Source of the DNA: Nocardioidaceae bacterium
Lineage (GTDB): Bacteria; Actinomycetota; Actinomycetes; Propionibacteriales; Nocardioidaceae
Direction: 5' to 3'
Length of the DNA: 64,000 nucleotides
NCBI GenBank assembly: GCA_030655315.1
Contig: JAURVT010000052.1
Coordinates: forward strand, 1-64,000
The position numbers and the translations under genes were made by a program. The notes below the pieces were generated by a model. The model searched no databases, was not told where the DNA came from, and saw nothing but the letters and a program-made list of their open reading frames with translations. Shown one piece after another: positions 8,115 to 34,310 of the stretch; the stretch's first letter is position 1, and every line of letters starts with the position of its first letter.

Positions 8115-8323
8115 TCGGATTCCCAGGTAGGCACGGGTTTCCGACGCAACCGCGGCGAGCTCTCCGTGGTCCCGTCGGTCCTCCATGCCGAGTGGGGCCG
8201 CCGGGACGGGTGGGACGACGTCGTCGTCCGCGTCACTCCTGCACCACCTGGCACGGAGAACCGGACCGATACCCGGGAAGTTCTCCGTGGTTCCGTCGGA
8301 AGTCCCCGCCTACCTGGGAATCG
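8115..8323 (-). repeat. MITE-like palindromic element, copy A
   Basis: This is a roughly 209-base non-coding element. Its left end is the 22-base terminal sequence starting TCGGATTCCCAGGTAGGC. The right end carries the inverse, GCCTACCTGGGAATC, with the outermost bases decayed. Inside, the arms contain GAGCTCTCCGTGG and GAAGTTCTCCGTGG segments able to form hairpins. It aligns along most of its length with the reverse complement of the element at 34070-34310. No transposase is encoded. The right terminal repeat runs into the PaaX-like gene and provides its stop codon. Confidence 0.8.
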
Positions 8324-9161
8324 TGGGACGGGAGGGGCGGACGAGGTCGCGCACCCAGGCGCGGGCCGGGGGGAGGTGGTGGGCGCGGGCGGTGGCGACG
8401 AGGGCGAGGCTGCGGGTGCCGGGCCAGTCCGGGGGGAGCAGGTGGGGTGGCAGGCCCGGGTCGAGCGACGGGATCGTGCGCCAGGCGTCGACGAGCCGCG
8501 CCAGGTGGACGAACGACGCCCGGCCGTCCGACGGCTCGGGCGAGTCGGCGTGCGCGTCGAGGAAGGCGAGGTGGCGGGCGGCGACGGCGTCGAGGTCCCA
8601 CCAGCGACGGACCACGTCGACCAGCGGCACGGGCGTCCCGACCTCGCGGCACGCGAACGTCGTCACGTGGTCGCGCAGGCCGAGGCCGTCCACCACGGCG
8701 TCGACGTCGGACGCGCGGTGGGCGGGCGCGACCCACAGCCCGGACGACACGGTCCCGCAGCCGGCCCAGGCCAGCTGCCGGCGCAGCTGGTGACGGTCGC
8801 CGCGCCGGTCCTCGGGGATGCTGAACGAGACGAGCAGCCAGCCGTCGTCGGGGCCGGCGCCGGGGCCGAAGATGCGGGTGTCGCCGCGCTCGAGCATCGA
8901 CGCCGCCCGGCCGCTCAGCGCGTAGCCGCTGCGCCCGTCGCGGGGCTCGGCCACCAGCACGCCGCGGGTCTTGAGCCGACCGACCGCCACCCGGGTGCTG
9001 TCGGCCGGCACGTCGAGCGCCTCGAGCAGCCGGACGAGGTCGGCCACCGCGACCCAGCCGCCGAGGTCGCGCAGGTGGGTGCCGAGCACCGTCCGCACCA
9101 GGGACGTGACGCTGCCCGGCCGGGAGTCGACGTCGTCGAGCCCGGCGCGGTCGTCGCTCAC
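8310..9161 (-). CDS. PaaX-family transcriptional regulator in the kynurenine operon
   Basis: This is a 283-residue protein with an N-terminal winged helix (about 15-75, with STRVAVGRLKTRGVLV as the recognition region). A central domain has the PaaX-type stretch DDGWLLVSFSIPEDRRGDRHQLRRQL, followed by a C-terminal alpha-helical domain. PaaX proteins repress aromatic catabolic genes and are relieved by aryl-CoA thioesters. The GTGA overlap with kynU implies co-transcription, so it probably regulates tryptophan breakdown, perhaps through anthraniloyl-CoA; that effector is inference. Its last residues, TIPR, and the TAG stop are encoded by the terminal repeat of element A, so the native C-terminus may have been altered. 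Confidence 0.75.
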   Translation of the reverse strand: MSDDRAGLDDVDSRPGSVTSLVRTVLGTHLRDLGGWVAVADLVRLLEALDVPADSTRVAVGRLKTRGVLVAEPRDGRSGYALSGRAASMLERGDTRIFGPGAGPDDGWLLVSFSIPEDRRGDRHQLRRQLAWAGCGTVSSGLWVAPAHRASDVDAVVDGLGLRDHVTTFACREVGTPVPLVDVVRRWWDLDAVAARHLAFLDAHADSPEPSDGRASFVHLARLVDAWRTIPSLDPGLPPHLLPPDWPGTRSLALVATARAHHLPPARAWVRDLVRPSRPTIPR

Positions 9162-10381
9162 CGGCCCGCGAGCTCGTCGCGCACGGCTTCGACGCCCGTC
9201 AGCAGCTCGCCGAAGCCGGTGCTCAGCGGGCTGAGCCCGAGGCGCAGGCCCATCGGCGCGCGGAAGTCGGGGATCACGCCGCGCGTCCACAGCGCCGCGG
9301 TGACCTCGCGGAACGACGGGTGGTCGAGCGTGACGTGGCCGCCGCGCTCGGACGGCTCGCGTGGCGTGGCGAGCTCGACGCCCAGCGGGGCCAGCAGCTC
9401 GTCGGACGCCTCGATCGCGAGCGCCGTCAGCAGCACCGACTTCTCGCGGACGGCGCCGATCCCGACCTCGGCGAGGAGGTCGAGCGTGTCCTTCATGGCG
9501 AGCATGCCGAGCACGGGCGGGGTGCCGCTGATGACGCGACGGATCCCGGCGGCCGGCTGGTACCCCGGCCCCATCGCGAACGCGTCCGCCCGTCCCATCC
9601 AGCCCTGCACGGGCTGGCGGAACTCCTCCTGGTGCTCGGCGCGCACGTAGGCGAACGCCGGCGAGCCCGGCCCGCCGTTCAGGTACTTGTAGGTGCACCC
9701 CACGGCGAGGTCGACGCCCCATGCGTCCAGCTCGACCGGCACCGAGCCGACCGAGTGCGACAGGTCCCACAGGACGAGCGCGCCCGCCTCGTGCGCCAGC
9801 GCGGTGATGGCGGCGACGTCGGCGAGGTGGCCCGACCGGTAGGCCACGTGGCTGAGCACGACCAGGGCCGTCCGCTCGGACAGCACGGGCGCCAGCTGCT
9901 CGGCGCGGACGCCGTCGCGCGGGTCGGTCTCGACCCAGCGCAGCGTCAGTCCCAGCTCGTCGGCGATGCCCTCGAGGACGTAGCGGTCGGTCGGGAAGTT
10001 GTCGGTGTCGAGCACCACCTCGTCGCGTCCGGGGCGCAGCGCGACGCCGCCGCGCGCGAGCTTGTAGAGCAGCACGGTCGTGGAGTCGCCGACCGTCACC
10101 TGGCCCGCGGCCGCGCCGAGGACGACGTCGCCGAGGCGGTCGCCGATCGCCAGCGGCAGGTCGAACCACTGCTCGTCCCAGCCGCGGATGAGCCGCCCGG
10201 CCCACGCGTCGGTCACGAACGACGTGATCCGCTCGGCGCTCGCCCGGAGCGGCCGGCCGAGGGAGTTGCCGTCGAGGTAGGCGACGACGTCGTCGTCCGG
10301 CCCGCGCAGGAACAGGTCGCGGTGCGCGCCCAGCGGGTCGGCGGCGTCCAGGTCGGCGGCGCGCGACGTCAGCGAGCTCAT
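9158..10381 (-). CDS. kynU: kynureninase
   Basis: This is a 407-residue fold-type I PLP enzyme that cleaves kynurenine (or 3-hydroxykynurenine) to anthranilate and alanine. Visible marks are YLDGNSLGR near the N-terminus, LVLWDLSHSVGSVPV (PLP-pyridine Asp) and the Schiff-base lysine in CTYKYLNGGPG, all typical of kynureninase. Length is normal for the family. The ATG overlaps the kynA stop (ATGA) and the gene ends in a GTGA overlap with the PaaX-like regulator. No formamidase (kynB) is seen beside it, so N-formylkynurenine hydrolysis must be encoded elsewhere. Confidence 0.93.
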   Translation of the reverse strand: MSSLTSRAADLDAADPLGAHRDLFLRGPDDDVVAYLDGNSLGRPLRASAERITSFVTDAWAGRLIRGWDEQWFDLPLAIGDRLGDVVLGAAAGQVTVGDSTTVLLYKLARGGVALRPGRDEVVLDTDNFPTDRYVLEGIADELGLTLRWVETDPRDGVRAEQLAPVLSERTALVVLSHVAYRSGHLADVAAITALAHEAGALVLWDLSHSVGSVPVELDAWGVDLAVGCTYKYLNGGPGSPAFAYVRAEHQEEFRQPVQGWMGRADAFAMGPGYQPAAGIRRVISGTPPVLGMLAMKDTLDLLAEVGIGAVREKSVLLTALAIEASDELLAPLGVELATPREPSERGGHVTLDHPSFREVTAALWTRGVIPDFRAPMGLRLGLSPLSTGFGELLTGVEAVRDELAGR

Positions 10382-11232
10382 CGGCCGATCTCCGTCCGGG
10401 CGGCGAACAGCTCGGGGAAGAAGGTGAGGTCGAGCGCCTTCTGCAGGTACCCGACGCCGCTGGAGCCGCCGGTGCCGCGCTTGCCGCCGATGATCCGGGT
10501 GACGGTGCGGACGTGCCGGAACCGCCACAGCTGGAAGTTCTCCTCGAGGTCGACCAGCTCCTCGAACGCCTCGTACGCCTCCCAGTGCTCGGCCGGCCGC
10601 TCGTAGATGCCGACGATCAGCGGGAGCAGCTCGTCGCGCAGGGTCCACGGCTCGCGGACGTCGCGCTCGAGGACGGACGCGGGCACGTCCAGGCCGGTCC
10701 GGGCGAGGTGGCGCCAGAAGGCGTCGTAGAGGGTGGGCGCGTCGAGCAGCGCGGCGAGGTCGGCGTGCGCGGCGGGGTCGGTGTCGAAGACCGCCATCGC
10801 CCTCGGGTCCTTGTTGCCGAGGATGAACTCGACGGCCCGGTACTGCGCGGACTGGAAGCCCGACGACGTCCCGAGGTCGTCGCGGAACTCGGCGTACTCG
10901 CTCGGGGTGAGGGTGGCGAGCACCGTCCACGCCTCGGCGAGGGTGCGCTGGACGTGCTTGACGCGGGCGACGCCCTTGAGCGCGCGGCCGAGGTCGTCGA
11001 CGTCCAGCGCCTCGACGGCGGCGCGCAGCTCGTGCAGCACCAGCTTGAACCACAGCTCGGTGGTCTGGTGCTGGACGATGAAGAGCATCTCGTCGTGGTG
11101 CTCGGGCCGGCTCACGGGCTTCTGGGCGCTGAGCAGCGCGGGGAGGTGCAGGTACTCGGCGTAGCTCATCCGGCCGGAGAGGTCGGTGACGACGCCGGCC
11201 TCCATCGGTCGGGTGCCGGTGCTGGGGTCCAT
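10378..11232 (-). CDS. kynA: tryptophan 2,3-dioxygenase
   Basis: This 284-residue heme enzyme oxidises tryptophan to N-formylkynurenine, the first step of the pathway. Family signatures are FIVQHQTTELWFKLVLHEL, SGFQSAQYR and the C-terminal FRHVRTVTRIIGGKRGTGGSSG, which holds the proximal heme histidine and the substrate-binding loop. It is the promoter-proximal gene of the kynA-kynU-PaaX operon. The ATG at 11232 fits the usual TDO N-terminus. A direct repeat lies just upstream at 11247-11276. The gene is intact. Confidence 0.95.
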   Translation of the reverse strand: MDPSTGTRPMEAGVVTDLSGRMSYAEYLHLPALLSAQKPVSRPEHHDEMLFIVQHQTTELWFKLVLHELRAAVEALDVDDLGRALKGVARVKHVQRTLAEAWTVLATLTPSEYAEFRDDLGTSSGFQSAQYRAVEFILGNKDPRAMAVFDTDPAAHADLAALLDAPTLYDAFWRHLARTGLDVPASVLERDVREPWTLRDELLPLIVGIYERPAEHWEAYEAFEELVDLEENFQLWRFRHVRTVTRIIGGKRGTGGSSGVGYLQKALDLTFFPELFAARTEIGR

Positions 11233-11246
11233 GGCGCCGACTATGT

Positions 11247-11276
11247 CACGATGATGACGGACGGCACAATGATGTC
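11247..11276 (-). promoter_or_regulatory. direct-repeat operator candidate for the kyn operon
   Basis: Two 12-base copies, CACGATGATGAC (11247-11258) and CACAATGATGTC (11265-11276), differ at two positions and are 18 bases apart start to start. They lie 15-44 bases upstream of the kynA start, where a repressor would block transcription. The PaaX-like protein encoded in the operon is the obvious candidate to bind here; this is inference. Confidence 0.45.
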
Positions 11277-11353
11277 ATGGGGTTTGATCCTCACGTGGCG
11301 TGAGGACGTGGGGCGGGCGCAGGCCGCTCGCATCTGACCGCTCACCGTGGCAG

Positions 11354-11395
11354 ACCCCCGCTCACCGTGGCGACCTCGCCGCAGTGAGCGGGGGT
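11354..11395. terminator. hairpin between fadH and kynA
   Basis: The 12-base perfect stem ACCCCCGCTCAC / GTGAGCGGGGGT has an 18-base loop. On the plus strand it is followed by TTT. The left arm overlaps the second of two direct copies of CCGCTCACCGTGGC placed 20 bases apart (11338-11351 and 11358-11371). It could end fadH transcription on the minus strand. Confidence 0.5.
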
Positions 11396-11396
11396 T

Positions 11397-11414
11397 TACC
11401 ACGACGTCGTGGTA
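11397..11414. promoter_or_regulatory. 18-base perfect palindrome downstream of fadH
   Basis: TACCACGACGTCGTGGTA is a perfect loop-free palindrome 13 bases beyond the fadH stop and about 165 bases upstream of kynA. A perfect palindrome without a loop is more typical of a dimeric regulator site than of a terminator. The protein that binds it is unknown. Confidence 0.4.
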
Positions 11415-11427
11415 GACCCAGGCCGCC

Positions 11428-13446
11428 TCAGAGGCGGGCCGCGAGCTCGGTGGCCTGACGGATGGCGCGCTCGGCGTCGAGCTCGGCGGCGACGTCGGCG
11501 CCACCGACGACGTGGACGGTGACGCCCGCCGCGCGCAGCGGCTCGGCGAGGTCGGAGACGGACTCCTGGCCGGTGCAGACGATCACCGTGTCGGCCTCGA
11601 CGAGGCGGGCGCGGCCGTCGACGGTGACGTGCAGGCCGGCGTCGTCGATGCGCTCGTAGGTGACGCCCCGCAGCATCTCGACGCCCGCGTCCCTGAGCGT
11701 CGTGCGGTGCACCCAGCCGGTGGTCTTGGCCAGGCCCTTGCCGAGCGGGGTGGTCTTGCGCTGCAGCAGCGTCACCTGGCGGAGCGGGGTCTCGTGCACC
11801 TTCTCGACCAGGCCGCCTCGCACGACGGCGGGGTCGCCGACGCCCCAGCGGCGCATCCAGGCCTCGGCGGTCTCGTGCGAGCGGCTGGTGCAGAACTCGG
11901 CGACGTCGAAGCCGACGCCGCCGGCGCCCATGATCGCGACACGGTCGCCCACGGCCCTCTCGCCGCGCAGCGCCTCGGCGTACGTCACCACGCTCGGGTG
12001 GTCGACTCCCTCCACCTCGGGCACGCGCGGGCGCACGCCGGTGGCGACCACGACGTCGTCCCAGCCGGCGCCGACGAGGGAGTCGACGTCGACCCGCGTG
12101 CCCAGGTGGACCTTGACGCCGAGCACCTCGCAGCGGCGGGTCCAGAAGCGCAGCGTCTCGGCGAACTCCCCCTTGCCGGGGATGCGCATCGCGAGGCGGA
12201 ACTGCCCGCCCACCTGCTCCTCGGCCTCCATCACCTCGACCTCGTGACCGCGCTCGGCCAGGGCGACGGCGGCCGAGAGCCCGGCGGGTCCCGCGCCCAC
12301 GACCGCGACGCGACGTCGACGCTGCGGCGGCACCGGCAGCAGGACGAGCGTCGTCTCGTGGCCGGCGCGCGGGTTGACCAGGCAGGACGCGCGCTCGTTG
12401 GCGAAGGTGTGGTCGAGGCAGGCCTGGTTGCAGGCGATGCAGGTGTTGATCTCGTCGGCGCGGCCGGCGGCGGTCTTGGCGACGAACTCGGGGTCGGCGA
12501 GCAGCGGGCGCGCCATCGAGACGAGGTCGGCCTGACCCGCGGCGAGGATGCGCTCGGCGACGTCGGGCGTGTTGATGCGGTTGGACGCCACGACGGGCAC
12601 GCCCACCTCGGCGCGCAGCCGCGCGGTCGTCCACGCGAACGCCGCCCGCGGCACCGAGGTGACGATGGTCGGGATCCGTGCCTCGTGCCACCCGATGCCG
12701 GTGTTGATGACGTCGGCGCCGGCCGCCTCCACGCGGTGCGCGAGCTCGGCGGTCTCGTCCCAGGTCTGCGCGTCGTCGACGAGGTCGAGCAGGCTCATCC
12801 GGTACTGGACGAGGAAGCCGGCTCCCGTCCGCTCGCGGACGCGCCGGACGACCGCCTCGGGGAACCGCATCCGCTTGGACGCGCTGCCACCCCACGCGTC
12901 GGTGCGGTCGTTGGTGCGCGCGGCGAGGAACTGGTTGACCAGGTAGCCCTCGGAGCCCATGATCTCGACACCGTCGTAGCCCGCGACCCGGGCGAGCGCG
13001 GCGGCGTCGGCGAAGTGGCCCACGCACGCCTCGACCTCGCGGGTGCTCATGGCGCGAGGCCGGAACGGCGTGATGGGCGACTGGCGGCTCGACGCGGCCT
13101 TGTTGAACGGGGTGTACCCGTAGCGCCCGGCGTGCAGCAGCTGCAGGACGATCCTCGCGCCGTGCTCGTGCGCGGCGTCGGTGACGAGCCGGTGCTTCTC
13201 GGCGAGCCGGCGCGACGTCATCTGCGACCCGGCCGGGAGCAGCCAGCCGCGCCAGTGCGGCGCGTACCCACCCGTCACGATCATCGCGACGCCACCCTTG
13301 GCCCGCTCGGCGACGTAGGCCGCGAGCTCGGGCAGGTGCTTGGCGCGGTCCTCCATCCCGGTGTGCATCGAGCCCATCACCACCCGGTTGCGCAGCGTGA
13401 ACGGGCCGACGTCGAGCGGCGACAGGAGCAGGGGGTGGTCGTTCAC
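11428..13446 (-). CDS. fadH: FadH-type NADH:flavin oxidoreductase (2,4-dienoyl-CoA reductase-like)
   Basis: This is a 672-residue protein. Residues 1 to about 340 form an old-yellow-enzyme TIM barrel with FMN. An iron-sulfur motif CIACNQACLDH...C (spacing CX2CX3CX11C) follows. The C-terminal half has FAD/NAD Rossmann folds (VAVVGAGPAGLSAAVALAERG and VAIMGAGGVGFDVAEF). This is the exact layout of bacterial 2,4-dienoyl-CoA reductase, which removes double bases-at-even-position intermediates of unsaturated acyl-CoAs, and of related trimethylamine dehydrogenases. With fatty-acid oxidation genes nearby the FadH role is preferred. It appears monocistronic. Confidence 0.85.
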   Translation of the reverse strand: MNDHPLLLSPLDVGPFTLRNRVVMGSMHTGMEDRAKHLPELAAYVAERAKGGVAMIVTGGYAPHWRGWLLPAGSQMTSRRLAEKHRLVTDAAHEHGARIVLQLLHAGRYGYTPFNKAASSRQSPITPFRPRAMSTREVEACVGHFADAAALARVAGYDGVEIMGSEGYLVNQFLAARTNDRTDAWGGSASKRMRFPEAVVRRVRERTGAGFLVQYRMSLLDLVDDAQTWDETAELAHRVEAAGADVINTGIGWHEARIPTIVTSVPRAAFAWTTARLRAEVGVPVVASNRINTPDVAERILAAGQADLVSMARPLLADPEFVAKTAAGRADEINTCIACNQACLDHTFANERASCLVNPRAGHETTLVLLPVPPQRRRRVAVVGAGPAGLSAAVALAERGHEVEVMEAEEQVGGQFRLAMRIPGKGEFAETLRFWTRRCEVLGVKVHLGTRVDVDSLVGAGWDDVVVATGVRPRVPEVEGVDHPSVVTYAEALRGERAVGDRVAIMGAGGVGFDVAEFCTSRSHETAEAWMRRWGVGDPAVVRGGLVEKVHETPLRQVTLLQRKTTPLGKGLAKTTGWVHRTTLRDAGVEMLRGVTYERIDDAGLHVTVDGRARLVEADTVIVCTGQESVSDLAEPLRAAGVTVHVVGGADVAAELDAERAIRQATELAARL

Positions 13447-13476
13447 GGGCGGGGTTCCTCACCGGTGGGGAGCGGG

Positions 13477-13734
13477 GTGTTCACTACTGGGGTGGGCAAC
13501 AGGTCGTGGTGGTTCCTCGTCGGCGCGGGCGTGTTCAACGTGGTGGTGTGGCCGCGGTTCGCGCTGGCGATCGTCCGCGACGACCGCGCCTGGGCCGGTG
13601 CCGCGTGGTCGAGCACGCCGCAGCCGTTCTTCTGGGTGCACGCGGTGCTGATCACCGCCGCGGTGCTCATCGGGCTGGGGGTGCTGGTCGTCGGCCTGCG
13701 GGGTCTGCGGGCGTCACGGCGGACGTCGCGATGA
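13477..13734 (+). CDS. SCO4848-family small membrane protein
   Basis: This is an 85-residue protein with two membrane helices (about 13-30 and 52-73). The pattern WWFLVGAGVFNVVVWPRF, then PFFWVHAVLIT and a closing GLRGLRASR, matches the actinobacterial SCO4848 family of unknown function. GTG at 13477 follows GGGGAGCGG; GTG at 13492 would also keep both helices. Its 3' end overlaps the convergent PadR gene by 68 bases, so the two transcripts are antisense at their ends. The function is unknown. Confidence 0.7.
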   Translation: MFTTGVGNRSWWFLVGAGVFNVVVWPRFALAIVRDDRAWAGAAWSSTPQPFFWVHAVLITAAVLIGLGVLVVGLRGLRASRRTSR

Positions 13735-14245
13735 TCTCCTCGCACCAGGCCACGACGGCCTCCTCGGTGCGGATGCCGCCGCGCAGCACCAGGTAGGGCC
13801 CGACGTCCTCGGGCGCGAGCGCGCCGGGGTCGGGGTAGTGCCGCTCGCTGCTGCGGCGGAACCCCTCGAGCCGCTCGCGGTGGGCGACGAGGTGACGACG
13901 GACGTCGTCCAGCACCGCGGACGCGTCGCCGTGGTGGAGGCCGCGGACCCGGACGGCGAGGTCGCTGCGGGTCTGCTCGACGGCGCTCGGCGCGTCCACC
14001 CACGACGTGAGTGCGTCGCGTCCGGCGTCCGCGATGGCGAACACCTTCTTGTCCGGGCGGCCCTGCTGCTCGACGGCGGTCGAGGCGACCAGCCCGTCGG
14101 CCTCCATCCGGGCGAGCGTCCGGTACACCTGCTGGTGCGTCGCCCGCCAGAACAGCCCGATCGATCGGTCGAAGCGGCGCGTCAGGTCGTACCCGCTGGC
14201 CGGCTGCTCGGCGAGCGACACCAGGATCGCGTGCTCCAGGGCCAT
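13667..14245 (-). CDS. PadR-family transcriptional regulator
   Basis: This is a 192-residue protein. The N-terminal winged helix contains ALEHAILVSLAEQPASGYDL and QVYRTLARMEADGLV, both diagnostic of PadR regulators, and a C-terminal helical dimerisation domain (about 90-180) is typical of the Vir-type subgroup. PadR proteins usually repress a neighbouring stress or efflux gene; here the DHA2 efflux gene lies 146 bases upstream on the same strand but has its own MarR regulator. A TGCAC-N9-GTGCA site sits 18 bases before the ATG, suggesting autoregulation. The 3' end overlaps the opposite gene. Confidence 0.88.
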   Translation of the reverse strand: MALEHAILVSLAEQPASGYDLTRRFDRSIGLFWRATHQQVYRTLARMEADGLVASTAVEQQGRPDKKVFAIADAGRDALTSWVDAPSAVEQTRSDLAVRVRGLHHGDASAVLDDVRRHLVAHRERLEGFRRSSERHYPDPGALAPEDVGPYLVLRGGIRTEEAVVAWCEEIIATSAVTPADPAGRRPAPPAR

Positions 14246-14262
14246 GGATCGGACCGTACCTC

Positions 14263-14291
14263 TGCACCGCCGCGCAGTGCAACGAGGTGCA
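14263..14291 (-). promoter_or_regulatory. operator candidate upstream of padR-like gene
   Basis: TGCAC (14263-14267) and GTGCA (14277-14281) form an inverted repeat with a 9-base spacer, and a further GTGCA follows at 14287-14291. They lie 18-46 bases upstream of the PadR start codon. PadR proteins commonly bind spaced inverted repeats at their own promoters, so autoregulation is the likely role. Confidence 0.45.
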
Positions 14292-14325
14292 TAGGGTCCT
14301 GCTGCTGGTGAGCGCAGATGGACGC

Positions 14326-14365
14326 GACGACGCCCGGCCCGCAGGAGCGCGGACCGGGCGTCGTC
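14326..14365 (-). terminator. terminator hairpin after the DHA2 transporter
   Basis: GACGACGCCCGG (14326-14337) pairs perfectly with CCGGGCGTCGTC (14354-14365), with additional CCGC/GCGG pairing inside. It lies 27 bases beyond the stop of the transporter gene on the minus strand, as expected for an intrinsic-type terminator without a strong U tract. Confidence 0.6.
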
Positions 14366-14391
14366 GGTGGGTGGTGCGTCGGTGCTGGGCG

Positions 14392-15942
14392 TCAGTGCAG
14401 GATGACGGGCGGCGCGGCGTTCTCGTCGTCGTCCGTCAGGTGGGAGACCTCGCGCTTGCGCGGGAGCATCAGCGCCGGGACCAGCGTGAGGAGCACCAGG
14501 CCCCAGGCCACCCAGTAGGTGTCGGCGAACGCCTCGGCGGCCTGCACGAGGCCGGCGGCCATGCCCTGCTCGCCGAGCCGGGCGGCGACGTCGGAGTCCC
14601 GCAGGCCCGCCATGGCGGGTCCGGCGAGCTCGCTGCCCTTGATGTGGCTCGTCAGGACCACCGACATCACGGCGACGCCGACCGAGCTGGCGACCTGCTG
14701 GGTGATGTTGAGCAGCGTCGAGCCGCGGGCGACCTCGTGGTGGCGGAGCGTCTTGAGCGCCGAGGTCATGATCGGCATCATCGTCGCGCCCATGCCGAGG
14801 CCCATCACGAACAGCGCCCCGATGATGAACGTGTACGACGTGTCGGCCTCGAGCTGGGTCAGCCCGAGCATGCCGATCACGATCAGCACGAGCCCGACCG
14901 GGACGATGCGCCCGACCGGCATCCGGTCGGTCAGCGCACCGGCGATCGGCATGGTGAGCAGCGCGCCGATGCCCTGCGGGGCGATCAGCAGGCCGGCCGC
15001 CAGCGTCGTCTCGCCGCGGACCTCCTGGAAGTAGGTCGGGACGAGCAGCAGGCCGCCGAAGAAGGCCGACGCGAACAGGAACATCGTGACGATCGCGAGG
15101 GTCAGGTTGCGGTTGGAGAACAGCCGCAGGTCGAGCAGCGGGTGCTCGGGCTTGAAGGCATGGCGGACGAACAGGCCGATCAGCACCACGCCGGCGAGCA
15201 CCGACAGCCACACGCGGGGCGCGGTGACGTCGCCGTCCTCGACGGGCAGCGAGGAGACGCCGAACAGGAAGAGCGCGAGACCGGGCGACATCAGCAGCAG
15301 GCCGACGACGTCGAGCTTCTCGGCCGGGACCGGCGCGTCCTTGGGGAGCACGATCGACGCGTACACCAGCGCCAGGGCGCCGATGGGCAGGTTGATCAGG
15401 AAGATCCAGTGCCAGCTGGCGTTCTCGATCAGCCAGCCTCCGAGGATCGGGCCGAGGATGGGGCCGAGCAGCATCGGCACGCCGAGGATGGCCATCAGGC
15501 GACCCATCCGGGCGGGACCGGCCGCGCGGGTCATGATCGTCATGCCGAGCGGCATCAGCATGCCGCCGCCGAGGCCCTGCAGGACGCGGAACCCGATGAG
15601 CATGTTGATGTCCTGCGCCGCCGCGCAGAGCACCGAGCCGGCGGTGAACAGGGCCACCGCGGTGAGGTAGAGCCGCTTGGTGCCGAAGCGGTCCGCCGCC
15701 CAGCCCGTCAGCGGGATGACGGTCGCGAGCGAGAGCGTGTAGGCGGTGACCGTCCAGGCGACGGTGGAGTAGGCCAGCGGGTTCGCCGGGTCGTCGGAGA
15801 AGACGCGCTGGAAGGTCGGCAGGGCGACGTTGACGACGGTGATGTCGAGGATCGACATGATCGCGCCGAGCACGACGACGCCGGCGATCTTCAGCACCGC
15901 ACCGTCGATCTTGTCCGGGTAGGTCTGTTCAGCTGTGGACAT
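14392..15942 (-). CDS. DHA2 family (EmrB/QacA) MFS multidrug efflux transporter
   Basis: This is a 516-residue polytopic protein with about 14 predicted helices. The first carries MSILDITVVNVALPTF, the DHA2 motif for proton-coupled drug export, and GWAADRFGTKRLYL is the MFS motif A loop. It would export hydrophobic or cationic toxins. It begins inside the 3' end of the MarR gene (14-base overlap), so the pair is translationally coupled, and MarR repression lifted by a substrate is the expected control. The gene is intact and ends before a strong hairpin. Confidence 0.92.
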   Translation of the reverse strand: MSTAEQTYPDKIDGAVLKIAGVVVLGAIMSILDITVVNVALPTFQRVFSDDPANPLAYSTVAWTVTAYTLSLATVIPLTGWAADRFGTKRLYLTAVALFTAGSVLCAAAQDINMLIGFRVLQGLGGGMLMPLGMTIMTRAAGPARMGRLMAILGVPMLLGPILGPILGGWLIENASWHWIFLINLPIGALALVYASIVLPKDAPVPAEKLDVVGLLLMSPGLALFLFGVSSLPVEDGDVTAPRVWLSVLAGVVLIGLFVRHAFKPEHPLLDLRLFSNRNLTLAIVTMFLFASAFFGGLLLVPTYFQEVRGETTLAAGLLIAPQGIGALLTMPIAGALTDRMPVGRIVPVGLVLIVIGMLGLTQLEADTSYTFIIGALFVMGLGMGATMMPIMTSALKTLRHHEVARGSTLLNITQQVASSVGVAVMSVVLTSHIKGSELAGPAMAGLRDSDVAARLGEQGMAAGLVQAAEAFADTYWVAWGLVLLTLVPALMLPRKREVSHLTDDDENAAPPVILH

Positions 15943-16411: not shown

Positions 16412-16442
16412 CGGGCGATCGTAACGCCGATGCAACTGTTGC
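16407..16442 (-). promoter_or_regulatory. MarR operator candidate
   Basis: The perfect palindrome GCAACTGTTGC (16432-16442) and a flanking TTGCA (16407-16411) / TGCAA (16431-16435) pair surround the proposed MarR start. MarR dimers bind short palindromes overlapping their own promoters, so this probably controls the regulator-efflux operon. Confidence 0.45.
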
Positions 16443-16492
16443 GTCCGTGAATTCTTTGTGACGTGCACCCATCTCGTCGGTGCGGGTCGGTG

Positions 16493-17584: not shown

Positions 17585-17648
17585 ACCAGCAGAACCAGCA
17601 CCCCGACCCCGGTGTTCCCGGCACCCGCATCCCCCGCCCACGCCCCCT

Positions 17649-17723
17649 CCCGTCCGCGATCTGATGGGTTGGCGGGGTTCCCAGGCGGTGAGAACCCCGC
17701 CAACCCATCGGATCGCGGACGGG
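17649..17723. terminator. long hairpin, family 1 (CCCGTCCGCGATCTGA outer stem)
   Basis: The arms 17649-17680 and 17692-17723 pair over 32 bases with one mismatch around an 11-base loop. The outer stem starts CCCGTCCGCGATCTGA, and the inner stem is TGGGTTGGCGGGGTTC. It lies 22 bases past the stop of the debranching-like gene. The same outer stem with a different inner stem recurs at 51363-51445. Confidence 0.75.
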
Positions 17724-17745
17724 GCGGGCGCGGGGGGCGTGCGGG

Positions 17746-20778: not shown

Positions 20779-20789
20779 AGGAGAACGCC

Positions 20790-24002: not shown

Positions 24003-24008
24003 TCGTCC

Positions 24009-26466: not shown

Positions 26467-26491
26467 GCCGGCCGGGTCGGCCTTGACGACC

Positions 26492-26510
26492 GTGACAGTA
26501 GTGGTGTCAC
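26492..26510. promoter_or_regulatory. GTGACA-N7-TGTCAC operator, site 1
   Basis: GTGACAGTAGTGGTGTCAC has perfect 6-base inverted arms with a 7-base spacer. It overlaps the probable -10 (CACAAT, 26508-26513), which sits 6 bases before the ATG at 26520. A near-identical site lies upstream of the thiolase operon at 34797-34815. A repressor bound here would block both operons. Confidence 0.7.
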
Positions 26511-26519
26511 AATCACCCC

Positions 26520-27683: not shown

Positions 27684-28822
27684 AGCGCCACCTGTTCGAG
27701 CCCGACCACGACGCGTTCCGCGAGTCGATGCGCACCTTCGTCGACAAGGAGATCACCCCCCACCACGCCCTGTGGGAGGAGGAGGGACAGGTCTCGCGCG
27801 AGGTGTGGAGGGCCGCCGGCGAACAGGGCTTCCTCGGCTTCATGATGCCCGAGGAGCACGGCGGCGGGGGCGTGCACGACTTCCGCTACAACGCGATCGT
27901 CCAGGAGGAGCTGAGCCGGGCGCGCGCGAGCGGACCGGGGTTCGCCATCCACACCGACATCGTGTCCGGGTACCTGCTCGCCTACGCCACCGAGGAGCAG
28001 AAGGCGCGGTGGCTGCCGGGCTTCTGCTCCGGCGAGACCATCACCGCGATCGCGATGACCGAGCCGGGCACGGGCTCGGACCTGCAGTCCATCGCCACCA
28101 CCGCCGTCCGCGACGGCGACCACTACGTCGTCAACGGCCAGAAGACCTTCATCTCCAACGGCATCCTGTCCGACCTGGTGATCGTCGCGGTGAAGACCGA
28201 CCCGTCCGCCGGTGCCGCGGGCGTCTCGCTGCTCGTCCTCGAGCGCGGGATGGAGGGCTTCGAGCGCGGACGCAACCTCGACAAGCTCGGCATGAAGGCC
28301 CAGGACACCGCCGAGCTGTTCTTCTCCGACGTGCGCGTGCCGGTGGACAACCTGCTGGGCGAGGAGGGCAAGGGCTTCGTCTACCTGATGGAGAACCTGC
28401 CGCAGGAGCGCCTCAGCATCTCGGTGATCGCCGCGGCCGCGATCCGCGGCGCCATCGACCTGACGCTCGACTACGTCAAGGAGCGCACGGCCTTCGGCAA
28501 GCCCATCGGCTCCTTCCAGAACTCGCGCTTCGTGCTCGCCGAGCTGGAGACCAAGGCGCAGGTGGCGCAGGTCTTCGTCGACCGCTCGATCGAGGAGCTG
28601 AACGCCGGCACGCTGTCGGTGTCCGAGGCCGCGATGGGCAAGTGGTGGACCACCGAGCTGCAGAAGGAGACCGTCGACGCGTGCCTGCAGCTGCACGGCG
28701 GCTACGGCTACATGCGCGAGTACCCCATCGCGCAGGCCTACCTCGACACCCGCGTCCAGACGATCTACGGAGGCACCACCGAGATCATGAAGGAGATCAT
28801 CGGCCGCACGATGGGCCTGTAG
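27680..28822 (+). CDS. acyl-CoA dehydrogenase
   Basis: This is a 380-residue flavoprotein. AIAMTEPGTGSDLQSI, the FAD/substrate stretch KTFISNGILSDL and the C-terminal IYGGTTEIMKEIIGR, which places the catalytic glutamate region, are all present. It introduces the trans-2 double bond of acyl-CoA. Translational coupling to the CoA-transferase suggests a methyl-branched or medium-chain substrate. The gene ends 16 bases before a strong hairpin between convergent genes. Confidence 0.93.
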   Translation: MKRHLFEPDHDAFRESMRTFVDKEITPHHALWEEEGQVSREVWRAAGEQGFLGFMMPEEHGGGGVHDFRYNAIVQEELSRARASGPGFAIHTDIVSGYLLAYATEEQKARWLPGFCSGETITAIAMTEPGTGSDLQSIATTAVRDGDHYVVNGQKTFISNGILSDLVIVAVKTDPSAGAAGVSLLVLERGMEGFERGRNLDKLGMKAQDTAELFFSDVRVPVDNLLGEEGKGFVYLMENLPQERLSISVIAAAAIRGAIDLTLDYVKERTAFGKPIGSFQNSRFVLAELETKAQVAQVFVDRSIEELNAGTLSVSEAAMGKWWTTELQKETVDACLQLHGGYGYMREYPIAQAYLDTRVQTIYGGTTEIMKEIIGRTMGL

Positions 28823-28837
28823 CCCGCCGCTTCCCTG

Positions 28838-28887
28838 GACCTGTCGGTGCGTGGTGATGCCCTGGCATCACCAGCCACCGACAGGTC
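28838..28887. terminator. bidirectional hairpin, family 2 (CTGTCGGTG outer stem)
   Basis: GACCTGTCGGTG pairs with CACCGACAGGTC, and inside it TGGTGATGCC pairs with GGCATCACCA, leaving only a two-base loop. It lies between the convergent acyl-CoA dehydrogenase and anti-sigma genes, and its right end reaches into the anti-sigma stop codon (28886-28888). A related hairpin is at 38354-38403. Confidence 0.75.
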
Positions 28888-29569
28888 AGGAGACGCGGGG
28901 CAGGTCGGCGGTGAGGACGGTGGTGCCGGACGCGTCGAGGACGCGGACCGCCTCGACGTCCGCGCGGGGGACGGCGCCGTTCATCCGGCAGTCGGTGACG
29001 TCGGCCGCGGCGATGAACGAGCCGGTGGTGAGGACGTCGCCGTCGGTCTCGGCGAGCTCGACGCGGTAGCGCTCGCCGGTGCGCAGGCCCGAGACGTCGA
29101 GGACGGTCTCGGTGCCCCACGTGTGGGCGACCAGCGAGGCGTCGACGTCGACGCCCTCGGGCACCTCGGCGAAGGTGACGGGCTCGATCGCGCCCAGGGT
29201 GCCGGGGCCGCCGGCCACCACGGGGTCGTCCGGACCGGCGTCCTGGGTGCCGAGGACGTACCCGCCGAACCCCGCCAGGACGACGGCCGCGGCCGCCGCG
29301 GCGAGCAGCACCGGCAGCCGGCGACGCAGGTCGGCACCCACGGTCTGGCTGAGGACCCGGGCGCGGAGGCCCCGGGAGACCCCCGCGTCCTGCCAGGTGA
29401 GGTCACTCGAGCGCAGCGCGGCCACGACGTCCTGGTGGTCCCCGAGGTGCGCGGCCGCCTCCGGGTCGTGCCGGAGGACGTCGAGGAGCTCCTCGCGCTC
29501 GGCGGACGTCAGCTCGTCGGCGCTGGCGGCGCCGAGGAGCTCGGCGAGACGGTCGTCGTCGTCGCTCAT
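28886..29569 (-). CDS. anti-sigma factor (RskA-like C-terminal domain)
   Basis: This is a 227-residue protein. The acidic N-terminal region (DDDDRLAELLGAASADELTSAER) lacks the HXXXCXXC zinc motif. One membrane helix at about 87-108 (LPVLLAAAAAAVVLAGFGGY) is followed by an extracellular domain with the repeated strands typical of RskA. Anti-sigma factors of this type hold an ECF sigma at the membrane and release it after proteolysis. The ATG at 29569 overlaps the sigma gene stop (ATGA), confirming the pair; an upstream ATG at 29581 is less likely. Confidence 0.8.
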   Translation of the reverse strand: MSDDDDRLAELLGAASADELTSAEREELLDVLRHDPEAAAHLGDHQDVVAALRSSDLTWQDAGVSRGLRARVLSQTVGADLRRRLPVLLAAAAAAVVLAGFGGYVLGTQDAGPDDPVVAGGPGTLGAIEPVTFAEVPEGVDVDASLVAHTWGTETVLDVSGLRTGERYRVELAETDGDVLTTGSFIAAADVTDCRMNGAVPRADVEAVRVLDASGTTVLTADLPRVS

Positions 29570-30084
29570 GGAGTCCTCCATCCGTGGGTCTCGAGCGCCG
29601 TGCGCATGGCGCGCAGGCCGTAGTGCATGCGGGTGCGCAGCGTCGCGACGCTGGTGCCGGTGCGGTCGGCCAGCTCGGCGTAGGTGCTCCCGCCGAGGTG
29701 CACCGCGGTGACCACCTGACGGTGCTCGTCCGACAGCCCGCTCAGCGCGGCCAGCAGCTGGAGCCGGTCCTCGACGTCGTCCTCGACGCGTCGGTCCGAG
29801 GCCTGGTGCTGCCGGTCGGTCAGGTCGGCGACCACGCGGGGACGCCGGGCCTGGGTACGGAGCTCGTCGACGACGAGGTGGCGGGCGATCGCGAACAGCC
29901 AGGTCCGCTCGGACCCGACCGTCGCGTCGTAGCTGTCACGTCGGCGCCAGGCCCGGACGAAGGTCTCCTGGAGGAGGTCCTCCGCCCGGCCCCGGTCGCC
30001 GATCGCGTTGACGCAGAACCCGAGCAGGGCCCGGGCGTGGGCGTCGAAGGCCGCGGTGACGTCGAACGTGGCGCCCGTGGCCAC
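29566..30084 (-). CDS. ECF (group 4) RNA polymerase sigma factor
   Basis: This is about 172 residues. Region 2 spans about 20-85 (RAEDLLQETFVRAWRR; YDATVGSERTWLFAIARHLVVDELR) and region 4 about 110-165 (LSDEHRQVVTAVHLGGSTYAEL; VATLRTRMHYGLRAMR), with no region 3, as expected for ECF sigmas. It recalls the SigK/ECF19 group by pairing with an RskA-like anti-sigma. GTG at 30084 is chosen after GGGGACGAC. It lies 22 bases after the DUF4394 gene and couples to the anti-sigma. Confidence 0.85.
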   Translation of the reverse strand: MATGATFDVTAAFDAHARALLGFCVNAIGDRGRAEDLLQETFVRAWRRRDSYDATVGSERTWLFAIARHLVVDELRTQARRPRVVADLTDRQHQASDRRVEDDVEDRLQLLAALSGLSDEHRQVVTAVHLGGSTYAELADRTGTSVATLRTRMHYGLRAMRTALETHGWRTP

Positions 30085-30106
30085 CGTCGTCCCCGCGACC
30101 TGTCGA

Positions 30107-30961
30107 TCAGCGGCCGGTCGGCGCCGCGAGGTCGACGATCGCGCGGTCGGCGATCGACGAGGTGCCGGTGACCGTGCCGCGGTCGAGGTTGACGCGGTAG
30201 ATCTTGGTCTGGCCGCGGCTGGTGTTGGACACCAGGGCCGTGTCGCGCCCGCCCACGGTGGCGATGTCGAAGGCGGTGGTCGCGCGGATGTCGCGCGCCA
30301 GGCGGGCACCGGCGTTCAGGGTGCCGTCGTTCGGCGGCGCCTGCGTGTGGATGCGGTTGGACGTGATCTCGAGGTCGTAGAGCGCCGTCTCCGTCGCACC
30401 CTTGATCGAGTTGGCGTAGGCGGCGCTGACCACGCGCGGGGTGCCGCTGCCGGCCGCGAGCTTCAGCCGACCGTCGACGGTGGTCTCGCCGGTCGCGACG
30501 TTCACGCGGTAGTTCTCCCCGCTGGAGGAGACGATGCGCATCCGGTCGACGGTGGGGTTGAAGTCCACCCCGTACGACGAGGCGCCGGACGTGATCTTGT
30601 CGCCGTCGGCGTCGCGCAGGAACGAGCGGCTGTAGGTGCGGCCCGTCGCGGCGCTGATCTTGAAGACCTTCAGGGTCTTGGCCGGGGTGAGCGCCACGCC
30701 CCACAGCTTGTCGACCGCGGGGCGGTAGTCGATGCCGACGACGCGGTCACCCGAGGAGAGGCCGCGGATGGCCTTGGGCGTCGACGCGCGGTCGCGGCCG
30801 GTGTCGACCGAGGTGATCTTGCCGTCCTGGGTCAGGCCGACGACCCGGATGCCCGGGTCGAGGGAGGCGGGAGCGGTCAGGGCGCTGGCGGACAGCGTCC
30901 CGGCCGAGACGAGGGCGCCTGCGGTGGCGACGACGAGGGCGGTCTTGCTCATGGCTCGCAT
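30107..30961 (-). CDS. secreted DUF4394 protein
   Basis: This is a 284-residue protein with an N-terminal signal peptide (MSKTALVVATAGALVSAGTL) followed by a DUF4394 domain of WD/beta-propeller-like repeats. Recurrent units such as VVGIDYRPAVDKLWGVAL, YGVDFNPTVDRMRIVSSSG and AYANSIKG are the family signature. Function is unknown; the protein is extracytoplasmic. AGGAG five bases before ATG 30961 sets the start. It is the first gene of an operon with an ECF sigma and its anti-sigma, so it is probably a target of that sigma. Confidence 0.82.
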   Translation of the reverse strand: MRAMSKTALVVATAGALVSAGTLSASALTAPASLDPGIRVVGLTQDGKITSVDTGRDRASTPKAIRGLSSGDRVVGIDYRPAVDKLWGVALTPAKTLKVFKISAATGRTYSRSFLRDADGDKITSGASSYGVDFNPTVDRMRIVSSSGENYRVNVATGETTVDGRLKLAAGSGTPRVVSAAYANSIKGATETALYDLEITSNRIHTQAPPNDGTLNAGARLARDIRATTAFDIATVGGRDTALVSNTSRGQTKIYRVNLDRGTVTGTSSIADRAIVDLAAPTGR

Positions 30962-30982
30962 GTGATCTCCTGTCGAGAGGGC

Positions 30983-31074
30983 GTTCGGGTCCTTGCCACG
31001 GTGAGATGCCGCGGACCGGCGCCTGGTTCGTGCACGGTCGACAGGGGATACGTCGCCACCGCGTCGGACGTTCA
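30983..31074 (-). promoter_or_regulatory. ECF-type promoter candidates for the DUF4394-sigma operon
   Basis: Two possible ECF promoters face the DUF4394 gene. One is GAAC (31070-31073) with CGTA (31049-31052) 17 bases downstream. The other is GCATCT (31004-31009) with CCGAAC (30983-30988) 15 bases downstream, which resembles the published SigK-type pattern and would leave a short leader holding AGGAG. Which is real cannot be decided by eye. Confidence 0.3.
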
Positions 31075-31105
31075 ACGTCCGGGCGATCTTTCTCGAAACC
31101 TCTTC

Positions 31106-31552
31106 TCAGGCGGTCGCGATGAACTCGAGGTTGATGTCGTCGGGGTCCTGGAACGACAGGATCGACATGCCGCTGTCGGGCATGTCGATGATCTCGCCGT
31201 GGTCCACGCCCGCGTCGCTCAGCTGGCCGGCGATCGTGACGAGGTCCTCGCGCGAGCCCACCTGGAAGCTGACGTGGTCGAGGCCGACCCGCGTCGGGTC
31301 GAACGAGCTCGAGCCGGGCTCGACCGGGCGGAGCCCGAACAGGTTGCCGCCGACGGCGTAGACGACGCCGCCGAAGAACACCTCGGGCTGCTGGCGCACC
31401 GCGGGATCGGTCTCGTCGGCCTCGGAGTCGATCGCGGGCTCGAACCCGACGACGCCCTCGTAGAAGGCACGCGAGCGTGCGAGGTCGGTGACGCTGACGC
31501 GCACGTGGTGGATCTGGCTGATCAGGCCGGCGGGCTTGGTGCTCTCGGTCAT
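31106..31552 (-). CDS. VOC (glyoxalase/dioxygenase-fold) family protein
   Basis: This is a 148-residue single-domain vicinal oxygen chelate protein: IHHVRVSVTDLARSRAFYEGVVGF at the start, VGLDHVSFQVGSREDL in the middle and SFQDPDDINLEFIA at the end. These place two histidines and the C-terminal glutamate that bind a divalent metal. Members include glyoxalases, dioxygenases and resistance proteins, so the substrate is open. It follows the MerR gene by 47 bases on the same strand, suggesting a MerR-controlled response gene. GGGAG lies five bases before the ATG. Confidence 0.82.
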   Translation of the reverse strand: MTESTKPAGLISQIHHVRVSVTDLARSRAFYEGVVGFEPAIDSEADETDPAVRQQPEVFFGGVVYAVGGNLFGLRPVEPGSSSFDPTRVGLDHVSFQVGSREDLVTIAGQLSDAGVDHGEIIDMPDSGMSILSFQDPDDINLEFIATA

Positions 31553-31599
31553 GGGTGCTCCCTGTGTTCTGGTCCGCGGGACCCGGACCGAGCCCGTGT

Positions 31600-32355
31600 C
31601 TAGGTTCGGCGCCGGATCGTCTCGCGCTTGGTCTCGTCCACCGCATCCTCGTACGCGACCACCAGGGCCTGCACGGTGAGCGGCTTGAACCGCTCGACGA
31701 CGGCCGCGATCGCCTCGGGCGACTGTCCCGAGCTGCGCAGGTGCGGCCAGACCAGCGTGCGGAAGACCTCGGTGACCTGCTCGGCGACGGATCGCGCGCC
31801 CGCGGCGTAGATCCGCTGGACGGCCGCGGCGGCCTCGAGCGGCAGGCCGAGGTCGAGCATCTCCACCCCGATGCCGAGGTGGGCCGGCGCGAGCCGGAAC
31901 GCGTCGTCCTCCTGCGTCGGCTCGACCACGCCGAGCGCCAGCAGCACCTCGACGTCGTCGTCGCTGAGCGGTCGACCCGCACGGGTCTCGAGCGTGCCGC
32001 GGTCGACCGTCTCGGGCAGGTCGGGCAGCCACGGCGCCAGCAGGGTGCGGTGCAGCGCGACGTCGCCGGGCGAGGCGTCGACGGGGATCCGCTCGACGTA
32101 CCGCTCGATCGCCGACAGGGTGAACCCGTGCGCCTGCAGCTCGCGGACCAGCTCGAGCCGGGCCACGTGGTCGGGCCCGTAGAAACCGTGACGTCCGGCG
32201 CGACGCGGGGGCGGGATCAGGCCGCGTCCGGCGTAGAAGCGGACGGTGCGGACGGTCATCCCGACCCGGGTGGCGAGCTGGTCGACGGTGAGCTCGACGC
32301 CTGCGCCGGACGTCGCGTCGTCCTGCTCTGAGGTCACCGGGGGAGCGTACGACAC
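31600..32355 (-). CDS. MerR-family transcriptional regulator
   Basis: This is a 251-residue protein. The N-terminal winged helix ELTVDQLATRVGMTVRTVRFYAGRGLIPPP begins near residue 20 and continues with GHGFYGPDHVARLELVRELQAHGFTLSAIE, classical MerR. The long C-terminal helical region (about 100-250) is an effector domain of unknown ligand; no Cys metal site is visible. The start is uncertain: GTG 32355 sits 6 bases after TAGACG and could be leaderless, while GTG 32337 has no signal. It probably controls the VOC gene downstream. Confidence 0.85.
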   Translation of the reverse strand: MSYAPPVTSEQDDATSGAGVELTVDQLATRVGMTVRTVRFYAGRGLIPPPRRAGRHGFYGPDHVARLELVRELQAHGFTLSAIERYVERIPVDASPGDVALHRTLLAPWLPDLPETVDRGTLETRAGRPLSDDDVEVLLALGVVEPTQEDDAFRLAPAHLGIGVEMLDLGLPLEAAAAVQRIYAAGARSVAEQVTEVFRTLVWPHLRSSGQSPEAIAAVVERFKPLTVQALVVAYEDAVDETKRETIRRRT

Positions 32356-32365
32356 CTCATCCGTC

Positions 32366-32371
32366 TAGGGT
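32366..32371 (+). promoter_or_regulatory. -10 element TAGGGT upstream of the LPXTG gene
   Basis: TAGGGT lies about 58 bases before the GTG at 32429, leaving a leader that contains GGAG five bases before the start. The same hexamer is used at several other genes in this window. Confidence 0.4.
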
Positions 32372-32428
32372 GCTGCTGCGACACCCACCTGGCGCGATCG
32401 CGGCGCGCCTCGTCACTCTGGAGTACCC

Positions 32429-34062
32429 GTGCGCCGTCCGCTCCTCGCCGTCCTCGGCTCGCTCCTCGTTGCGGGAGCCGCCGCCGCCGCGCCGCCGGCC
32501 TCGGCCGAGCGCACCACCGACTGGGCGACCTGGACCGAGCTCGGGGCACGGCGGGGGACTTCACCACCACCCTGCGCCTGCCGGGCCTGACCTTCCCCGA
32601 GGCGACGGTGCGGAGCACCTCGCGCGGCGGAGGCGGCGTCGGGGTGCAGAGCGGCACCAGCGCCTTCCTGAACGCCGGCTCGCCGCCCGGTCAGGTGTTC
32701 GGCTCGAGCCTCGGGCGGCCCTACCTGAACCTGAGGCCGCGGGTCGACACGTCGGCCGGGTCGTCCACCACGACCTACACGTTCGCGTCGCCGACCCCCG
32801 CGGCCGGCTGGGCCATGGTGCTGGGCGACGTCGACGCGGACCAGGTGCGGGTGCAGGCGCGACGGGCCGACGGCGGCGCCGCGTCCGCCGACGACCTCGG
32901 GTTCGCGGGGTCGTTCAACGCGTGCGACTTCGGCACCCCGCGCACCGCCGGCTGCGCCGCGGGCGTGGGCGACGCCCCCGCGTGGGACGCCGGCACGCAG
33001 ACCCTGACCGGTGACACCGCCACCGCCACGACGGGGGCCTTCGCCGACACCGTCGGCGCCACGGGCTGGTTCCGGCCGACGACCCCGCTCAGCAGCATCA
33101 CGCTCACGTACACCCGGCGCGAGGGCGCCCCCGTCTTCCAGACCTGGTTCGCCGCCGAGAGCCGCGGCCTGTCGGGCACGGTCGTCGTGCCCGCGGGCGG
33201 CGCCCCGTGCACGGGCGGCACCACCACGGCGCGGCTGCTCACCGCCGACGGGACCGAGGTCGCCTCGGCGCCGGTGGTCGACGGCGCCTACGCCTTCGAC
33301 GGCCTCGCCCTGCGCGACGACTACCGCGTCGTGGTCGACCCGCCGGCGGGCTGCCTCGTCGAGGGCGACCCCGAGCGGGAGGCGTCGGCCGTCGTGGAGC
33401 AGCCGGACCAGCCCGACGCCGTCGTCGGCCCCTTCGAGGTCCGCGCGATCGTCCCCGCCCCGGTGTCCGGGACGGTCCGCGACACCGACGGTGCCGGGAT
33501 CGGTGGCGTGGCCGTCACGCTCGACCGCCCGGACGGGACCGCGGCAACCACCACGACCGCGGCGGACGGCACCTACCTGCTCGACGACAACCCGGTCGGC
33601 GACGGCTACGTCGTGTCGATCGACGTCCCCGCGGGCTACACCGGCGACGACGCGCGCGAGCCGTTCGACGTCACCGCGCCGGCAGCCGGGCAGGAGCCCG
33701 CGCCGGTGACGGGCCAGGACTTCGTGCTCGCCCCCGTCGCCGCCGAGCCCGGCACGCCGCCCGGCACGGACCCGACGACCCCGGAGCCGACGCCGCCGAC
33801 GGACCCGCCCGCCACCCCGGTGCAGCCCGGCGGCGGCGACGACGCGGGTGACGGTGCCGACGCGGGGGATGGCGCCGAGGTGGGTGACGGTGCGGCGGGC
33901 GACGACCCGTCGGCCGGCGTCCAGACGGGAGGGGCCGGCGGGGAGCTCCCCGACACCGGCGGCCCGTCCCCGGCGCCCCTCGCCCTCGGCGCCGGTCTCG
34001 CCCTCTCCGGCGCGGTCGTCCTCCTCACCGACGCCCGCCTGCGCCGCCGTCGCCGCCTCTGA
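32429..34062 (+). pseudogene. LPXTG-anchored surface protein with Cna/SpaA-like domain, frameshifted
   Basis: The GTG at 32429 (GGAG five bases before) opens a signal peptide, VRRPLLAVLGSLLVAGAAAA, but this frame ends soon after. The mature protein continues in another frame from about 32555 (DFTTTLRLPG) to 34062. A single missing G in the CTCGGGGCACG run near 32541-32551 would join the two frames as TELGGTAGDFTTT. The mature part has a carboxypeptidase-regulatory/Cna-like beta domain (GTVRDTDGAGIGGVAVTLDR), a Pro/Gly/Asp spacer, then LPDTGGP, a membrane helix and RRRRRL, a complete sortase signal. It is either a real inactivation or a sequencing error in a G run. Confidence 0.75.
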
Positions 34063-34069
34063 CCGGCCG

Positions 34070-34310
34070 TCGGATTCCCAGGTAGGCACGGTCTTCCGAC
34101 CGGGGCACGGAGAACTTCCCGGGTACCGGTACGGATCTCCGTGCCAGGTGGGACGGACGGTGCCGATGCGACGGGAGGGGTCGGACGGCGGACGGCGCGC
34201 GGCGTCCCGTCCCACGGACCACACGCGCACCACTGGGCACGGACGACCGACGGGACCACGGAGAGCTCTCCGTGGTTCCGTCGGAAAGCCGTGCCTACCT
34301 GGGAATCCGA
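34070..34310 (+). repeat. MITE-like palindromic element, copy B
   Basis: This 241-base element is bounded by perfect 22-base terminal inverted repeats that read TCGGATTCCCAGGTAGGC inward from each end and share the next four bases. Inside, CCACGGAGAGCTCTCCGTGG (34256-34275) is a perfect 20-base palindrome, and GCACGGAGA/TCTCCGTGC forms a second stem near the left end. It begins 7 bases after the LPXTG gene stop. It aligns with copy A (8115-8323) in reverse orientation. No protein is encoded. Confidence 0.85.

Follow-up and report, generated by a model that had tools for sequence, protein, structure and literature searches.

Dispersed hairpin repeats at gene ends in a Nocardioidaceae genome and an apparently order-wide class of similar layout

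Elements A and B and their repeat family

Two non-coding palindromic elements, A and B, lie at gene edges in the first 64,000 nucleotides of contig JAURVT010000052.1 of a Nocardioidaceae bacterium (this whole stretch is the window). They raise the question of whether such elements are copies of a mobile repeat or signals of the host, and by what means they would be propagated. A preliminary description, made from the sequence alone, had presented them as oppositely oriented members of one family. Local alignment agreed with this, the score being 205 in inverted and 105 in direct orientation, with similarity over the whole length. The boundaries of both elements were redrawn (Table 1), that of A being a correction, while the family itself proved real. 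The terminal inverted repeats of B were perfect, as described, and measured 23 rather than 22 bp once GTCGG/CCGAC was included. The left end of A carried the same 22 bases, and its right end was shorter, with GTGGGACGGG replacing CCGAC after 15 exact bases. The 20-base palindrome reported around GAGCTC was perfect in B and imperfect in A.

Table 1. Features of the repeat elements in the window
Feature	Position	Strand	Remarks
Element A, 'full' form	8114..8322	-	Two half-units head to head, inverted with respect to B
Left terminal repeat of A, TCGGATTCCCAGGTAGGCACGG	8115..8136	+	22 bases as at the end of B
Right terminal repeat of A	8308..8322	-	15 exact bases, outermost bases lost
Third element, half-type	11343..11418 (approx.)	.	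Different subfamily of the wider class; core hairpin and one palindromic outer arm TTTACCACGACGTCGTGGTAGA
Element B, 'full' form	34069..34311	+	Between convergent genes
Left terminal inverted repeat of B	34069..34091	+	23 bp
Core hairpin, right half-unit of B	34234..34297	+	GGCACGG-NNNN-CCGAC ... GTCGG-NNNN-CCGTGCC; corresponds to positions 16-81 of the 96-nt model R2
Perfect 20-base palindrome CCACGGAGAGCTCTCCGTGG	34256..34275	.	Apex of the core hairpin in B
Right terminal inverted repeat of B	34289..34311	-	23 bp

A is flanked by an L,D-transpeptidase-like gene (7344-8072, minus strand) and a PaaX-like gene (8310-9161, minus strand), the predicted TAG stop of which falls within the end of A. 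The neighbours of B encode a protein with SdrD_B-like domains (32608-34062, plus strand) and a tautomerase (34333-34782, minus strand). The third element of the window sits between the tryptophan 2,3-dioxygenase gene (10378-11232, minus strand) and the next gene rightward.

We searched the host genome (4.18 Mb in 57 contigs) using B and its end sequence as queries. B gave 81 matching rows, equivalent to about 42 distinct elements in the whole genome, and the terminal 15-mer, with up to two mismatches, occurred 73 times compared with 4 for its reversed control, so the repeat is present far above chance. Since A and B aligned end to end and many further copies exist in the host, the homology is not confined to the short ends and the pair is not isolated. 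The inventory comprised 14 'full' elements (~205-250 bp, two half-units head to head, A and B included), 13 intact 'short' elements, 10 'half' elements, 3 split by an insertion sequence (IS) and 2 decayed. The short elements run for 94 bp from YGTCGG to CCGACR and form one long hairpin, in which the outer stem TGTCGGATTCCCAGGTAGGCACGG is followed by a 4-by-4 internal loop and the core stem CCGACAGGACCACGGAGA is capped by GAGCTC or a close variant. In the half elements a single outer end is retained with the core, and the sequence continues into AGGTGGTGC...GTGGGAC. Among the host copies, 19 of the 23 outer pairs were invariant and the internal loop was nearly free in sequence. This loop was T-rich and was composed of pyrimidines only or purines only in 54 of 67 arms, compared with the 40% expected from composition. 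Its commonest tetramer was TCTT (28 of 67 arms, e.g. L029-L101). The basic unit is the short form of 94-96 nt; half-units and head-to-head pairs are its derivatives, A and B being composites of two half-units. These data supported the description of a non-coding repeat with terminal repeats, internal hairpins and placement at gene edges. No Rfam family reached its gathering score in the window or at the elements of 19 loci, where the lone match was a tRNA outside the element, and the host repeat pattern had no match in 84,980 named genomes, a set in which the host itself is possibly not included.

An order-wide layout and its turnover between species

A covariance model built from the host short elements (R1) was run on 49 genomes of genus g19, which belongs to the same family as the host, and 14 of them contained elements. 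Their sequence was quite unlike that of the host elements and their layout and length were alike (for example TGACGGTTTACCACGGTCCCGTGGTAAACC-core-...CCGTGGTAAACCGACG, 96 nt). In one group with GATTCCCAGGTCGACCTGGGAATC arms, each of four genomes held 21-33 copies of the arm hairpin. We also scanned the 84,980 named genomes with an end-to-end pattern in which a gap of 50-80 nt was left free and the interior unconstrained. It returned 11 loci, 7 of them with identical spacing, in Aeromicrobium, Nocardioides, Nocardioidaceae and Propionibacteriaceae records. Although their interior had been unconstrained, the end-pattern loci fold as near-complete hairpins; 3 of the 11 (L224, L227 and L234) resemble chance matches.

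A second model, R2, was made of 16 sequences drawn from the g19 and end-pattern sources and applied with a cut-off of E up to 1e-4. When 397 genomes of the order Propionibacteriales were searched, 125, representing 10 of 41 genera, had matches and the other 272 had none; element counts per genome are lower bounds, 10 candidates having been scored in each. Nearly all the matches listed were exactly 96 nt long. The third element of the window was matched at 11343-11406 (E 2e-6). Within 94-96 nt, the shared layout has conserved tips (approximately TGTCGGWTTNCC), and its outer stem of 23 bp is separated from the core stem by a symmetric, unpaired internal loop. Viral contigs gave no match to this layout. 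Arm sequence varies within a genus from species to species, and a single genome can contain several subfamilies. Limited full-text searches of open-access papers yielded no description of such elements. The family of A and B belongs to an apparently undescribed, order-wide class of hairpin repeats. Genomes of Nocardioidaceae and Propionibacteriaceae commonly carry this class, which therefore bears on the annotation of gene ends, on assembly breaks and on the evolution of convergent gene pairs.

Turnover was examined in two collinear sister species, G036 and G063, which are 92.6% identical. For nine G036 element sites the counterpart in G063 could be identified, and 7 of the 9 had no full element there. 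One full element was common to both species (699758 in G036, 672824 in G063). At site 2780598 of G036, G063 retains the core with decayed outer arms; at 92042 and 412980 it has clean empty sites, at 125056 an ordinary terminator-like hairpin, at 1084796 a probable remnant, and at 1226456, 2616799 and 2567892 an unrelated short sequence. The species therefore differ in the presence and absence of elements, which shows turnover by gain or loss. G036 copies differ from one another by ~16% on average and the two species by ~7%, so several absences may be losses; the probable remnant and the core-only site point to loss rather than new insertion. The target-site duplications that had been suggested as a check were not visible at the readable empty sites; the clean ones (L160 and L163) have no direct repeat, but their flanks are diverged. 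At a further pair of orthologous sites (L141:1501-1594 and L179:1228-1322, flanks 91% identical), two species carry elements that are equal in length and unlike in sequence, next to a terminator-like hairpin common to both species; this suggests that replacement or fast concerted change fits as well as transposition. A hairpin of another type, ~50 nt long (GATTCCCCGGTCACGTGG...CCACGCGACCGGGGAATC), was seen in G063 (L215:7783-7832) and is absent at the same G036 site.

Placement, symmetry and alternative explanations

Neighbouring genes were called with a codon-usage gene caller, a crude tool with which single cases may err and the trend holds. Among the host elements with two called neighbours, 22 of 37 were flanked by convergent genes and 3 by divergent genes; the elements typically lay 2-40 bp 3′ of a stop codon. 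Related genomes gave similar proportions (27/44, a few of these sites being orthologous to one another, and 16/27), compared with a convergent share of 19% of adjacent gene pairs, or 15% at gaps of at least 30, in 800 kb of a related genome. The bias across the three sets had binomial p values of 4e-6 to 4e-12. No neighbouring gene recurred across loci except at orthologous sites or as a member of a generic family. Copies would survive chiefly at gene ends, and foremost between convergent genes, since insertion would be tolerated there.

Compensatory changes in the stems, which the preliminary description had proposed to look for, were strong between species and absent among copies of one genome. 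In the cross-species sets, which were partly retrieved with palindromic queries so that pairing is inflated, partly by construction, the covariation score was 0.493 compared with 0.128 in shuffles (0/500) and less than 0.09 in slid controls; 89% of cells were paired and 27 of 38 pairs had changed on both sides. Other settings reproduced the result. The free interior of the end-pattern loci constitutes the cleanest evidence. In the order-wide R2 sample, 43 of 45 pairs had changed on both sides and pairing fell to 0.5-0.8 near positions 27-32, indicating that the internal loop is common to the class. Within the host, in contrast, no pair had changed on both sides among copies; within G036/G063 there were 3 such pairs and 4.2 in shuffles. 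The two arms of one host full element were no closer to each other than arms of different elements, and the idea of an RNA structure maintained by compensation at each site was consequently dropped as unsupported in the host. Covariation between species and not within a genome suggests that symmetry is seemingly renewed in the propagating lineage instead of being repaired site by site. A mobile or repeatedly copied element would be expected to show this pattern, individually selected terminators less so. We infer that symmetry is selected during propagation; correction of imperfect palindromes by template switching is another way in which it could be renewed.

Altogether, we favour the reading, with a probability of about 0.6, that the repeat is a dispersed non-coding palindrome, miniature and non-autonomous, which works like a REPIN or a MITE and of which A and B are composite copies. 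The earlier suggestion of a non-autonomous mobile or structured extragenic element is partly upheld, namely by the repeat family, the gene edges and the presence/absence differences, and not by target-site duplications, a transposase or covariation within the genome. A trans-acting enzyme would recognise the folded form, which is either a single long hairpin or a clover of three hairpins. The unit would spread or be replaced within each lineage, so that the layout would stay fixed while the sequence became particular to each species.

The strongest rival, which we nevertheless consider unlikely, is a role at transcript ends: the elements would be host 3′-end signals, either bidirectional terminators or hairpins protecting mRNA 3′ ends, kept by selection on RNA, and the similarity of copies would come from gene conversion or duplication. 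Their position a few bases past stop codons and between convergent genes agrees with this, as does the high stability of the hairpins in both transcript directions. So do the two G063 sites at which a terminator-like hairpin takes the place of an element or the core hairpin outlasts its decayed outer arms. However, the hairpins at A and B lack a subsequent T-run, no terminator-like site was found at either element, and at L164 and L141/L179 the element already has a terminator-like hairpin as its neighbour. Moreover, G063 is hairpin-free at two sites where G036 has an element (L160 and L163), a terminator can do without a conserved primary sequence and without a constant length of 96 nt, and host copies lack compensatory changes.

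Proteins have been reported to bind BIMEs, and by analogy the elements could be bound as DNA by an architectural or topological protein at places where convergent transcription accumulates supercoils. The convergent placement would suit such a function; the outer arms are often palindromic themselves, like operators, and in the host a nearly invariant outer repeat contrasts with a nearly free internal loop. Yet arms that differ between species of one genus and subfamilies that coexist in one genome would be odd for a conserved housekeeping protein, and we regard this explanation as improbable.

Mobilisation and comparison with known systems

The REPIN- or MITE-like reading calls attention to the enzyme involved. 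No RAYT/Y1 transposase (PF01797) was detected in the host or in the 49 genomes of g19, while control genomes matched as expected, and no longer transposon with the same ends occurred among the matches in the 57-contig host assembly; the full-length relative or RAYT gene sharing the ends that had been anticipated was accordingly not encountered there. Only one inverted element pair has a gene between its members (C9:80718-82003). This gene (L105:1725-2999, host C9:80724-81998) encodes an AbiEi-domain protein of 328 aa with a possibly nuclease-like C-terminal part. It was dropped as a candidate mobiliser, its homologue adjoining only one other element among all loci, and its position between inverted halves is probably a coincidence. 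The elements would rather be moved by an enzyme acting in trans. That they are classical MITEs of a DDE transposon, the autonomous parent of which is absent from the assembly or was missed in it, is very improbable despite the terminal inverted repeats, the small non-coding format and the presence/absence between species, given that the sole gene-containing pair holds the AbiEi-domain gene, that no longer element with these ends was seen among the host matches, nor a target-site duplication at the readable empty sites, and that a fixed 96-nt interior kept as structure, not sequence, is unexpected for an internally deleted transposon.

The IS that splits three host elements is 1.3 kb long and encodes a 395-aa transposase, whose best match was the NCBIfam IS481-family model (E 9e-62, below the curated cut-off of the model). 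All three host copies lie inside elements, in one orientation and at a fixed site in the internal loop, where this adjoins the outer stem, flanked by a putative 13-bp duplication, CGG-NNNN-CCGACA. The elements make up ~0.14% of the genome, so the chance of finding 3/3 copies inside them is ~3e-9. The short target motif also occurs outside elements (2 in the window, 3.3 being expected by chance). The flanking tetramers pair as GAGA (C11-left with C3), TTTT (C11-right with C50) and GAAA (C15 with C4). The two duplications flanking the C11 copy (C11:107273-108603, L043/L108) thus mismatch each other and match the ends of C3 and C50, indicating that C11 joins two different insertions, through either recombination between IS copies or misassembly. 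Close relatives of this transposase were found neither in the family nor in plasmids. Tentatively, and with less confidence than for A and B themselves, we propose that the order harbours an apparently undescribed REPIN-like hairpin class of fixed 96-nt architecture, which would be propagated by an enzyme other than Y1/RAYT and serve as a landing site for a site-specific IS of the IS481 family.

Among known systems, bidirectional intrinsic terminators likewise form a strong hairpin right after the stop codons of convergent genes, whereas the elements described here have no T-run, repeat their primary sequence, keep a fixed length and sometimes have a separate terminator-like hairpin alongside. 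MITEs of DDE transposons share the terminal inverted repeats, the size below 300 bp, the lack of genes and the presence/absence between relatives; here, in contrast, no parent was found among the host matches, no target duplication is visible and structure is conserved rather than internal sequence. Similarly to the host IS, the REP-targeting IS1397, ISKpn1, IS621, ISPpu9/10 and ISRm19 are found only within copies of one palindromic repeat. The REP-targeting ISs surveyed belong to the IS3, IS110, IS4, IS256 and IS5 families, and IS481 is unmentioned (PMC1525189). The IS481 case would add one IS family to the users of dispersed palindromes as safe landing sites.

The closest comparison is with REPINs and REP-BIMEs. 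A REPIN is an inverted doublet able to fold as a single hairpin or a clover and is dispersed in extragenic space (PMC3116915). The likenesses include dispersed extragenic palindromes (~42 copies in the host), inverted doublets (14, made of half-units), an internal stem mismatch (the NNNN/NNNN internal loop), frequent location between convergent genes, lineage-specific classes and targeting by ISs (PMC3116915, PMC8266576, PMC1525189). Unlike them, the elements here have longer stems and a fixed length of 94-96 nt over two bacterial families. REPs also have a GTAG-type tetranucleotide at the 5′ foot (PMC8266576); in the host, GTAG precedes GCACGG, but relatives differ at the matching place. REP-BIMEs, moreover, have a RAYT (TnpA_REP), whereas the host and its 49 relatives have no such gene flanked by the repeats or elsewhere. 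With neither a PF01797 protein nor a conserved GTAG foot, the class is therefore not REP/REPIN by definition, though REPIN-like in working. REPINs are believed to rely on RAYT transposases. Were a RAYT-free, REPIN-like class widespread, dispersed palindromes would have to be made and spread by another enzyme or process, which could be searched for with the close species pairs and many carrier genomes reported here.
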